A stretch of DNA of 64,000 nt. Origin: Oscillospiraceae bacterium (GTDB lineage Bacteria > Bacillota > Clostridia > UMGS1810). Below the pieces are notes generated by a model. It was not told where the DNA came from. It worked only from the letters and a program-made list of their open reading frames with translations, and ran no database searches. Made by a program: the position numbers and the translations under genes. The DNA lies in assembly GCA_015069015.1 (NCBI GenBank), contig SVJK01000001.1, positions 21,846 to 85,845 of the forward strand, read 5' to 3'. Positions 57,575-62,230 of the stretch are shown in pieces; positions within the stretch are counted from its first letter, which is position 1, and the number at the start of each line of letters is the position of its first letter.

Positions 57575-58456
57575 ATGGAAAATATTGTGGTAACGGAATT
57601 TTGCCGCTATCTTAAAGAAGAAAAAAATATGTCTGAAAATACGGTTATGTCATATTACAGAGATGTAAGACTGTTCAACTCATATATAAACTCAGAAGGA
57701 TATGATGTCCTCGGAGCGGGAAAGCTTCAGATTATGGACTTTGTTGCCCATCTCCAATCTCAGGGCAAGGCAGATTCTTCACTTTCAAGATGCATTGCCT
57801 CTGTAAGAGCGCTGTATTCTTTTCTGATTAAAAACAATGCAGTAAAAACGAATCCTGCACTGGATATAAAGCTTCCTCGTCAGGTAAAAAGAATGCCTTC
57901 TGTGCTTACAAAAGCAGAAGTGGAGTCTCTTCTTGAGTGTCCGTGCATTTCAAGTCCCAGAGGCATCAGAGACAAAGCAATGCTGGAGGTTATGTATGCA
58001 ACAGGGATAAAAGTTTCAGAGCTTATTTCCCTGAAACTTGATGATGTGGATGCAGACCTTGGCTATCTTAAATGCATTCAGACAAAGAATGTGAGAATCG
58101 TCCCCATTGGCAGATGTGCAATGAATGCTCTTAAAAATTACCTGACGATAGCAAGACCTTTAATGGCAAACCCCGAAACCGTCACCCTGTTTGTAAATTG
58201 TAACGGAGATGAAATGTCAAGACAAGGGTTTTGGAAAATTGTTAAAGAATATGCAAAAAAATCCGGCATAAAACAAGACATTAATCCCCACACCCTTCGT
58301 CATTCCTTCGCAACTCATCTTCTGGAGAACGGTGCAGATCTTTTTTCCATTCAGGAGATGCTCGGACATAAGGATATTTCTTCAACTCAGGTTTATGCAA
58401 AACTTGCGCATTCGGGAATAAGAGAAGTGTATAACAAGGCACATCCGAGAGCATAG
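57575..58456 (+). CDS. Tyrosine recombinase, XerD-like
   Basis: 'EFCRYLKEEKNMSENTVMSYYRDVRLF', C-term 'HTLRHSFATHLLENGADLFSIQEMLGHKDISSTQVYA'. Confidence 0.9.
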   Translation: MENIVVTEFCRYLKEEKNMSENTVMSYYRDVRLFNSYINSEGYDVLGAGKLQIMDFVAHLQSQGKADSSLSRCIASVRALYSFLIKNNAVKTNPALDIKLPRQVKRMPSVLTKAEVESLLECPCISSPRGIRDKAMLEVMYATGIKVSELISLKLDDVDADLGYLKCIQTKNVRIVPIGRCAMNALKNYLTIARPLMANPETVTLFVNCNGDEMSRQGFWKIVKEYAKKSGIKQDINPHTLRHSFATHLLENGADLFSIQEMLGHKDISSTQVYAKLAHSGIREVYNKAHPRA

Positions 58457-59344: not shown

Positions 59345-59857
59345 ATGTTTAAAACAGATGATATAGTTACATATGGAATCAACGGAGTTTGTAAAATTGT
59401 TGGTATTGAGGAAAAAGAACTTTTGGGCGTGAAAAGGGATTATTATGTTTTAAAACCTGTCACAAATGACAAATCAACCTACTTTGTCCCTGTTGATAAC
59501 AGCAATACCACGAGCAAAATGCGAAAACTTCTGACAGAAGATGAGATAAACAATATCCTTGACTGTGCAGACAACGAAAAACTCCAATGGATCAGCAATG
59601 AAAGGGAACGCAAAGAATGCTACAAAAAAATTGTCGGTGAGGCAAATCACACAGAACTTATAAAAATGATAAAATCCATCACCTGCGAAAAGAAAAGACG
59701 CGAAAAACAGGGAAAGAAACTTTTTGCATCAGATGAAAAGTTTCTAAGAGATGCTGAAAAGATTTTGTGTGATGAATTTGAATATGTGCTGAATCTTTCA
59801 GAAAAAGAAGTTTTGGCTTATATTTTTAAAAGAGTGGGAAAAGCAACTGAGGAATAA
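59345..59857 (+). CDS. CarD/CdnL-like RNA polymerase-binding regulator
   Basis: 'FKTDDIVTYGINGVCKIVGIEEKELLGVKRDYYVLKPVTNDKSTYFVPVDN'. Confidence 0.88.
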   Translation: MFKTDDIVTYGINGVCKIVGIEEKELLGVKRDYYVLKPVTNDKSTYFVPVDNSNTTSKMRKLLTEDEINNILDCADNEKLQWISNERERKECYKKIVGEANHTELIKMIKSITCEKKRREKQGKKLFASDEKFLRDAEKILCDEFEYVLNLSEKEVLAYIFKRVGKATEE

Positions 59858-59863
59858 TAATTA

Positions 59864-60070
59864 TATTGCAATTTTTGTTACAATATGATACACTATAGTT
59901 GCGACATAAATCTTAATATTTGAATTATCTCATGTAAGTGTGTGTTTTTATTTTCGGTAAAAATGCATGCTCTATTTCGCATACTTAGATGAGATATGTC
60001 GAGATTTGTGTCGCAGCAACATGAGCTATGCATTTTTCGGTGCATCGGCTTATGTTGATGCACCTTTTTT
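59864..60070 (+). ncRNA. Candidate structured ncRNA (~170 nt) with promoter and terminator
   Basis: TTGCAA-17-TACACT promoter; long-range stem tgcgacataaatct (59900)/agatttgtgtcgca (60002); inner stem atctcatgtaagtgtg/catacttagatgagat; perfect terminator ggtgcatc-N10-gatgcacc-T6 (60039-60070). Confidence 0.65.
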
Positions 60071-60210
60071 ATTTGCAATACAAAATACCGGGGGTGGATT
60101 TTTCAATACATAATGCAGATTGAAATTGTGCAGAAATTTTTGATCGGATGTGTATTCGTTACACAACAGCGCGCGCAATTTTGTCGCCAAACAAATTCAT
60201 TGATTTTTAA

Positions 60211-60270
60211 AACAGACTGCAGAAAATGCAAAGGATTAAATATCCGTAATGCATTTTGCTGCAGTCTGTT
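60211..60270. repeat. Long inverted repeat/terminator-like hairpin
   Basis: aacagactgcagaaaatgca / tgcattttgctgcagtctgtt with nested ggat/atcc loop stem. Confidence 0.7.
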
Positions 60271-60372
60271 TTCTTAAATAAAAATATTTGAATTTGATAA
60301 GTATAACAGGATTGATAAACTTCAAATAAATTGGAGTTTGTCGCTCTAATGGTGATGAACAAAACACCGTAG

Positions 60373-60626: not shown

Positions 60627-60712
60627 GTCTGCATAGCAGACATATCATGTCGCGAAGCGATATATCATGAAACCGAAGGTTCCATTTCATGCACCTTCAG
60701 GTGCATTTCATT
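60627..60712. repeat. Array of small hairpins with AT(A/T)TCAT linkers
   Basis: gtctgc-ata-gcagac, tcgc-gaa-gcga, aacc-gaa-ggtt, gcacct-tc-aggtgc separated by atatcat/atttcat. Confidence 0.75.
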
Positions 60713-62230
60713 TTACGAATGATATATTGCATCCTTTTTCCATGATGCTACGAAGGGATAGTCAGAATAGAGACGTACTGCAAATTCTGCCCCATCCTCA
60801 ACACCGATTTTGGCAAGTGAATTTCTGTTGAAATAGAGAGCGTCAGGATCTGCATCATTTTCATCAAAAAGATTCTTTTGGCATCTTGTTCCTCCAGGAA
60901 TTTCAACCTTTATGGCAACAACCGATTTTGCCGGATCATCAAAATATAAATCTGCATAGACAGGAATTTTTATCATTGTGGTGTTTATGAATGTGAACGT
61001 GGCATCATCTTTTGTCACAGAGTCAAAATACCAGTTTTTAGCACCTGCGGCTTTCTGATACTGTGCTATTTTTTCATCTAAAATCTGTCTTCCGTATTTT
61101 CCGGGAGTGTATGGAAGTTTTATGGTTACTGTTTCTTTTGCAGTAAAATAGTCTTTCACATTAAGGTCATATATAAGATGTTTGTTGTAGGAAGTATATA
61201 TGTTATACTTCATAAATCCAATGTCTTCTTCTGTCGGACAGAAACATACTGATGGATCTATGAGGTCATATTCTTCTTCTCTTCCTCCTCCGAATCCGTG
61301 GTGAGGAATCTGAAGTATATCTGATTTAAGGTATCTTCCCCATCTTTCGCCAAATTTTGCAAGTTCAAAATCTGCATCTGCACACAGAAGAAGAACCTGA
61401 CCTTTGAATGTCACTTTTAAAATCAGAGAATAACGATTGAAACACTCAACAGGCGGTTTCATTGTGTCGTCGGGTGATGAAAGGACTTCAAAATGGAGTC
61501 CCGCAATGTCAAACACGTCACCTGTGTGAAGCATAAATAAGGGATAGCCTTCTTTTTTAATAATGCTTTCAAGTTTCTGAAGGTTCTCCATTTCTTCCTG
61601 TGTTCCCATTGCCGGAATTCTTTCAAGGTTTTCTTCCTTTGCCTCAGGGAAATTATAGAGAAATTTTTCTATTATCACATCATCTTTATATTTTCTGTAG
61701 AATTCAAAAAATGCTCTGTAGTGGTCAAGGTGTGGATGTGTCATAATCCACGCGGCAATAACGGGTTTTTTGTCCGGTGACTGCTCTCTCATAAGATTTA
61801 TGAGTTTGTCAGCCTCAGGCTCAAATTCCCACCCACCGTCTATGATAACAAATCTTCCGTCGTCGCATCTGATGACATCTGAAAGTCCTGAATCTTCAGG
61901 CTGAATCTGTGTGAAAAGTGCATCACATACGCCTTGTTTTCTCTTTGAAGTAAAATCGGGTACTTCTTCATCGTTTATATATATAATTTTTATCTCTTTC
62001 GTTCCCGGGTAGAACGCAAGTCTTACAGAATCCTTTCCTTTTTTGAAAAATGCAAAGGTGTTATCCGAAAGTTCATAACTGTTTATCATTTTAAATCCCT
62101 GTGCTCTTATATCAAGAACGTGGGCATTATACGAAGCTACGTCTGAGGATGTAAAAGCACTCACCCAAACCTTTTCGCTCTGTGGTGCACAAAAATCAAG
62201 AACTTCATTTTTTAAAGGGTTAAATTTCAT
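60713..62230 (-). CDS. Metallo-beta-lactamase-fold hydrolase (ComEC-C-like)
   Basis: 'RCDDGRFVIIDGGWEF...AAWIMTHPHLDHYRAFFEFY...LQIPHHGFGG'; internal Met start preferred. Confidence 0.8.
   Translation of the reverse strand: MKFNPLKNEVLDFCAPQSEKVWVSAFTSSDVASYNAHVLDIRAQGFKMINSYELSDNTFAFFKKGKDSVRLAFYPGTKEIKIIYINDEEVPDFTSKRKQGVCDALFTQIQPEDSGLSDVIRCDDGRFVIIDGGWEFEPEADKLINLMREQSPDKKPVIAAWIMTHPHLDHYRAFFEFYRKYKDDVIIEKFLYNFPEAKEENLERIPAMGTQEEMENLQKLESIIKKEGYPLFMLHTGDVFDIAGLHFEVLSSPDDTMKPPVECFNRYSLILKVTFKGQVLLLCADADFELAKFGERWGRYLKSDILQIPHHGFGGGREEEYDLIDPSVCFCPTEEDIGFMKYNIYTSYNKHLIYDLNVKDYFTAKETVTIKLPYTPGKYGRQILDEKIAQYQKAAGAKNWYFDSVTKDDATFTFINTTMIKIPVYADLYFDDPAKSVVAIKVEIPGGTRCQKNLFDENDADPDALYFNRNSLAKIGVEDGAEFAVRLYSDYPFVASWKKDAIYHS

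Follow-up and report, generated by a model that had tools for sequence, protein, structure and literature searches.

A widespread and apparently undescribed family of attenuator-like RNAs in Clostridia, including gene-less copies whose antisense tails may act on sibling leaders

Introduction

The locus considered here raises the question of what a stable, promoter-borne and terminated RNA might do when no coding gene stands behind it. It lies within a stretch of 64,000 nucleotides (hereafter, the window) from Oscillospiraceae bacterium (GCA_015069015.1, contig SVJK01000001.1, positions 21,846 to 85,845), and a sequence-only reading of it had proposed a stand-alone structured RNA downstream of a CarD-like gene, either 6S-like or of a new class. 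Comparison with homologues indicates that the RNA is not 6S RNA, but belongs to an apparently undescribed, widespread attenuator family; the window copy represents its type without a gene and with an antisense tail (class ii). Our preferred reading, to which we assign a probability of about 70%, is that these are transcription-attenuating, riboswitch-like RNAs, and that the tails of class ii copies terminate sibling leaders in trans.

Anatomy of the Window Copy

All the elements lie on the forward strand of the window. The promoter (59866-59894) can be read directly in the sequence as a −35 box TTGCAA (59866-59871), a spacer of 17 nt and a −10 box TACACT (59889-59894), as the sequence-only reading had described; by itself it is weak, with 8 of 12 consensus bases, under the threshold of the promoter scanner. 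The predicted start (~59900) coincides with the first base pair of the closing stem P1, which opens the hairpin of ~115 nt proposed earlier (59900-60015). P1 pairs 59900-59913 with 60002-60015 (TGCGACATAAATCT/AGATTTGTGTCGCA; 14 bp, a single one of which is G-U, as described, and supported by pair counts in the family alignment), and in target leaders its 3′ strand is the site complementary to class ii tails. The inner segments are also paired: according to fold prediction, P2 joins 59927-59942 to 59980-59995 (a stem included in models R1 and R2), and the apical hairpin P3 (TTTTTA-TTTTCGG-TAAAAA) occupies 59945-59963, its A5 alternatively extending a pseudoknot. The 5′ side of this pseudoknot is the apical strand X (AAAAATGCATGCTC, 59959-59972), and its partner is strand J; a linker and J together (CAACATGAGCTATGCATTTTT) span 60017-60037.

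J can pair either with X or with the 5′ half of the intrinsic terminator T1 (60039-60070), which consists of a stem (60039-60064) and a U tract (60065-60070); as antiterminator, J would engage 60041-60057 within T1. The letters bear out the competing pairing noticed in the sequence-only reading: CAACATGAGC (60017) has a possible partner in GCTTATGTTG, a part of the terminator GGTGCATC...GATGCACC-T6. T1 is one of two terminator-like sites detected, 0.2 being expected. The minimum free energy of the RNA is −69.1 kcal/mol (z = −8.5) and none of 200 shuffles was equally stable, so that the fold is far from chance.

The statement that no gene follows holds for coding genes, but the conserved unit does not end at T1, since it extends to about 60272. 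Sequence comparison reveals a spacer (60076-60172) that contains a small hairpin (GTGTATTCGTTACAC, 60150-60164) and resembles a stretch of the G000:C53 copy (L022). It is followed by an antisense element (GCGCAATTTTGTCGCCAAACAAATTC, 60173-60198) complementary to the P1 3′ strand plus linker of GTTTGGCGAC-type leaders, and by a second terminator-like hairpin, T2 (60210-60272; fold and sequence), with a TTTT end. The region 60076-60275 folds with z = −3.35.

Identity and Distribution of the Family

In Rfam 15 scans of the window and 35 loci, no family reached its gathering score at any copy, T-box leaders included, and the only matches (tRNA, Gut-1, RNase P and L10 leader) lay away from the RNA copies. 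Positions 59700-60200 gave nothing beyond chance-level matches even at E ≤ 10, with 6S RNA not among them, and the 6S model (RF00013) found nothing above its cut-off in the window's genome (86% complete), control genomes giving matches as they should. The earlier suggestion of a structured RNA with its own promoter, in no Rfam family and possibly of a new class, has accordingly held, and its 6S-like alternative has not. The family shares with 6S RNA its size and the long bulged hairpin; 6S RNA is normally present in one or two copies and lacks a switching terminator, whereas the RNAs described here have no 6S model match, give 12 family matches in this single genome, lie mostly directly upstream of genes and conserve a terminator/antiterminator switch. 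We found no description of the family in the literature.

A Gut-1 RNA (RF01706, 56.3 bits) is located at 60637-60713 on the reverse strand of the window, and two further family copies of this genome also have Gut-1 nearby (L022, 3710-3786; L073, 2008-2084).

A DNA search of 61 related genomes revealed further copies, with five full ones in the window's genome, a tandem pair among them; 23 copies were aligned, and covariance models were built for family searches. These models account for the 12 matches in the window's genome, among whose lower-scoring members there is a second subfamily with a longer P2, a different apical sequence (AAAAATGCAAATTCC) and GGAGTTTGCGTTTTT as J. Matches were found in 16 of 17 genomes of the same bacterial family; among the Clostridia sampled, 74 of 392 genomes gave matches at E ≤ 1e-12, with at most seven candidates scored per genome. 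In a phylum-wide sample of 399 genomes, none of the 398 besides the window's own was matched, which also supports the specificity of the models.

Conserved Architecture and Covariation

In all, 151 copies were collected. Their order is fixed: a sigma-70 promoter, P1, the P2/P3 hairpin, the pseudoknot between apical loop and J, and an intrinsic terminator. At least 9 of 12 promoter consensus bases are present in 133 of the 151 copies (12% of shuffles), the spacer is 17 nt in 136, and in 147 the −10 box ends 5-6 nt ahead of P1, a distance from which the RNA should start at P1.

The absence of covariation among homologues had been named in advance as what would speak against a structured RNA; covariation proved strong. 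In P1, both sides have changed in 12 of 13 counted pairs and 98.6% of cells are paired (111 copies); in the X-J pseudoknot, the figures are 8 of 14 pairs and 94.1%, the alignment having been fitted to P1 and the terminator and not to the pseudoknot; and 7 of 8 terminator stem pairs covary, with a conserved U tract. Taken together, P1, pseudoknot and terminator have 97.1% of their cells paired, with 441 double-change cells vs. 111 (sd 7.6) when shuffled, and slid controls are paired at 32-62%. To guard against apparent covariation that stems from relatedness, the pairing energies were in addition permuted among the paralogues of each genome (95 copies, 22 genomes, 5000 permutations). The native pairings were more stable than the permuted ones for P1 (−17.8 vs. 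−11.7 kcal/mol), the pseudoknot (−15.2 vs. −13.4 kcal/mol) and the antiterminator (−17.7 vs. −15.4 kcal/mol), with 0 of 5000 permutations as good in each case. Column counts for the antiterminator are weakly above shuffles (65.0 vs. 63.2% paired, with fewer double-changed pairs than shuffled) because its loop length varies, and for this pairing we consequently rely on the energy permutation. The mean stability of antiterminator and terminator is the same (−16.3 kcal/mol each), as a switch needs.

Within the apical region, the closing pair of P3 alternates between A-U and G-C across the alignment, its U5 and A5 are almost invariant, and the conserved loop bases comprise GG-UAAAAA and CUCUAUUUU. 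A U-A-U triple helix (U5/A5/U5) was considered and rejected by reasoning, as both U5 strands would be antiparallel to A5 and look like alternative Watson-Crick partners.

These data bear directly on the notion that the family is a mobile, MITE-like palindromic repeat, its stems reflecting inverted repeats rather than RNA. The multicopy occurrence, the palindromic core and the tandem duplicates seen at L023, L026 and L230 would fit such an element; against it stand the compensatory changes in P1 and terminator, the covariation of pseudoknot and antiterminator, the constant direction of the RNA relative to its promoter, its terminator and the gene behind it, and the lack of any plasmid match, and we regard it as hardly credible. 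Otherwise there were just two partial matches (75-76%; MT835845.1, 2114-2235, and MT837627.1, 2222-2354), both in human faecal scaffolds that carry no annotation and whose label, “Bacteriophage sp.”, is uncertain. Among the local duplications, L230 (2001-2592; G001:C138) carries the promoter-RNA-terminator unit three times head-to-tail, ~214 nt apart, and at L138 two RNA copies (2001-2455 and 1358-1775) each precede a near-identical gene for a Cys-rich protein, leader and gene having been duplicated together.

Genes Behind the RNA

In about two thirds of the 151 copies (class i), a Shine-Dalgarno sequence and an open reading frame follow the U tract in the same direction, mostly 8-40 nt on, a few of the gene calls being doubtful; the family is on this ground mostly a leader, although the window copy itself does not lie in the 5′ leader of a gene. 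The downstream products are diverse, including BspA-type leucine-rich repeat, copper amine oxidase N-domain, S-layer homology, CHAP and VWA proteins, AbrB/MazE-like and LytTR regulators, and many small proteins without a confident family; they share no metabolic theme and no common pathway pointing to a ligand. A role in type III toxin-antitoxin or other defence systems was rejected, since ten small downstream proteins had no convincing PADLOC match; one of them was AbrB/MazE-like (Pfam, PHROGs).

Two groups of small proteins recur behind the leaders. In the window's genome, paralogous proteins of ~80 aa (FYKYP.KRP.TID.L.I.DC.EI) are encoded at L023, L068 and L071 (two copies), and that of L023 has no match in Pfam, NCBIfam, PHROG or PADLOC. 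Small Cys-rich proteins (TGI.L.PGN.GKDC.GNG...CCC.EC) are encoded directly behind the RNA at L032, L034, L045, L138, L196 and other loci; the representative tested had no Pfam or NCBIfam match. As for the surroundings of the window copy, the CarD-like neighbour was discarded as part of the unit, as the locus of its homologue in JAFQAZ010000002.1 (L021) has no RNA copy, and a tyrosine recombinase (Phage_integrase family, XerC/D-like) is encoded at 57575-58453 on the forward strand, two genes upstream of the CarD-like gene.

The position of the class i genes argues against the view that these are stand-alone sRNAs acting in trans, in the manner of 6S or by base-pairing, with the terminated RNA of 175 nt as their product and the neighbouring genes irrelevant. 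The window copy, with its own promoter and without a gene behind, could be read in this way, and a terminated product is predicted for every copy; but this explanation is improbable, given that about two thirds of copies have a Shine-Dalgarno sequence and ATG 8-40 nt past T1, that a covarying antiterminator would be purposeless in a mere sRNA, and that there was no 6S match. Somewhat less improbable, though still unlikely in our opinion, is an attenuator sensing a protein or tRNA (T-box, ANTAR or leader-peptide type, or with an RNA-binding protein as sensor), whose output logic would be the same choice between terminator and antiterminator. Here the absence of any Rfam match, T-box included, weighs against it; a leader peptide was rejected because the short frame from an apical ATG, present in some copies, loses its ATG (ACG, ACA) where the pseudoknot covaries. 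What the comparisons do reveal, namely a conserved intrinsic terminator, a mutually exclusive and covarying antiterminator, and a 5′ leader position in about two thirds of copies, characterizes the family as probable transcription attenuators.

Class II Copies and Their Antisense Tails

Around 30 copies, the window's among them, are gene-less and carry instead a tail element such as TTGTCGCCAAACAA, in many cases with a second terminator-like hairpin after it. In sequence, the tail is the reverse complement of the P1 3′ strand, the linker and the first part of J as they occur in the family, not as they occur in its own RNA: tail energies against family 3′ segments average −21.1 kcal/mol vs. −16.4 kcal/mol for shuffled tails, and pairing in cis was rejected, as the own RNA is no better a partner than foreign ones (p 0.30). 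Runs to the own RNA are 5-10 nt long.

Among 24 tails from eight genomes of the bacterial family, 7 show a perfect run of 16-19 nt to another leader of their own genome, vs. 0 of 48 class i downstream controls, and these matches, unlike class i downstream DNA, extend past P1 into the linker. Examples are L226 with the leader of L259 (19 nt), L026 with L265 and L229 with L060 (18 nt each), L251 with L228 (17 nt), L223 with L038 (17 nt, where the energy and not the run is beyond chance) and L041 with L026 (16 nt). Against leaders drawn in the same numbers from other genomes, the tails give a combined Fisher p of 2e-6 (8e-5 without duplicated tails), and the class i controls 0.11. A convincing same-genome target exists for only six to seven of the 24 tails. 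The tail of the window copy has long complementarity to leaders of relatives, and in its own genome (86% complete) its best perfect run is 13 nt (L069; p 0.9), no better than chance. Most tails tested from other bacterial families had no clear partner, L285 with L288 being the best exception; some significant runs there are artefacts of tandem copies, which contaminated the same-genome test of six such genomes, and its Fisher value was discarded. Overall, the complementarity suggests that the tails are attenuator-controlled antisense RNAs.

The strongest competitor to this reading is that the family consists of orphan riboswitches for a small molecule or ion and nothing else, P1-P3 being the aptamer and the class ii tails incidental remnants or cis structures that do nothing in trans. 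The anatomy of an attenuator, the conserved bases in the loops and the diversity of downstream genes would all fit, and the window tail has no proven target in its own genome. On the other hand, the tails keep clear of their own RNA, and in several genomes they match a sibling over 16-19 nt and on past P1 into the linker, as the DNA downstream of class i copies does not; the downstream genes, moreover, have no metabolic theme in common. We hold this alternative to be a substantial one, with odds of roughly one in three.

A Three-Strand Switch

The simplest reading of the three pairings is a switch in which either X takes J, or J takes the 5′ half of the terminator. Transcription would start at P1, and the P1-P2-P3 domain would fold. 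In the putative OFF state, X captures J in the pseudoknot, leaving the terminator hairpin free to form and yielding an RNA of about 175 nt. In the ON state, J would not be held by X and would pair with the terminator 5′ half as antiterminator, allowing RNA polymerase to read on; in most copies the outcome would be expression of the gene behind, and in the window copy a longer RNA with antisense tail and second terminator. Such a tail would most likely bind the P1 3′ strand, linker and J of a sibling leader; because a bound tail would cover J and linker, the antiterminator of the target would be blocked and transcription would end at its terminator.

We further propose, tentatively and at somewhat less than even odds, a natural RNA-only network, with a dozen paralogous attenuators in each genome. 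Certain of these would put out antisense RNAs that terminate specific siblings, and chromosomal attenuator cascades would be the result. With the same reserve, the tail of L041 acting on L026, and that of L026 on L265, may exemplify such a chain within one genome.

Relation to Known Systems and Significance

The ligands of the trans-acting riboswitch RNAs SreA, Rli55 and AspocR of Listeria are known, and these RNAs act on targets unrelated to them. They resemble the new family in that the output of a switch RNA can be a regulatory RNA; here, the targets would instead be sibling switches. Riboswitches and riboswitch candidates with intrinsic terminators (Rfam; Breaker-group motifs, PMC8632094, PMC11109978) likewise have a structured domain, conserved loop bases, a pseudoknot and a choice between antiterminator and terminator upstream of genes, whereas the new family has no Rfam match or metabolic theme, a promoter fixed directly before P1, and a gene-less, antisense-tailed type. 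By description, the Brt RNAs of Bartonella are similar, being multicopy, lineage-specific RNAs of ~200 nt directly upstream of genes, with a proposed dual role as cis riboswitch and trans sRNA (PMC5387305); they belong to another organism and are followed by HTH regulators in 9 of 9 cases, unlike the diverse genes found here.

In pT181 and pIP501, an antisense RNA binding a leader decides between terminator and read-through, and synthetic cascades have been built from pT181 (PMC3753616). Antisense-leader pairing, orthogonality of pairs by stem sequence and cascades would be common to both cases. An RNA complementary to the antiterminator-forming stretch of a leader, as in pT181, is found in several same-genome pairs (16-19 nt), the window copy not being one of them. 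In the family described here, predicted from sequence, the partners would be unlinked chromosomal copies of a single family, with the antisense itself behind an attenuator.

The finding adds to many Clostridia a widespread switch class outside Rfam, which precedes BspA-like surface, S-layer and copper-amine-oxidase-N proteins, AbrB- and LytTR-type regulators, and many unknown small proteins. Should the tails act in trans, the family would offer a natural case of antisense and attenuator RNAs wired in orthogonal pairs, and chromosomal attenuator cascades, if true, would be of a kind so far built synthetically.
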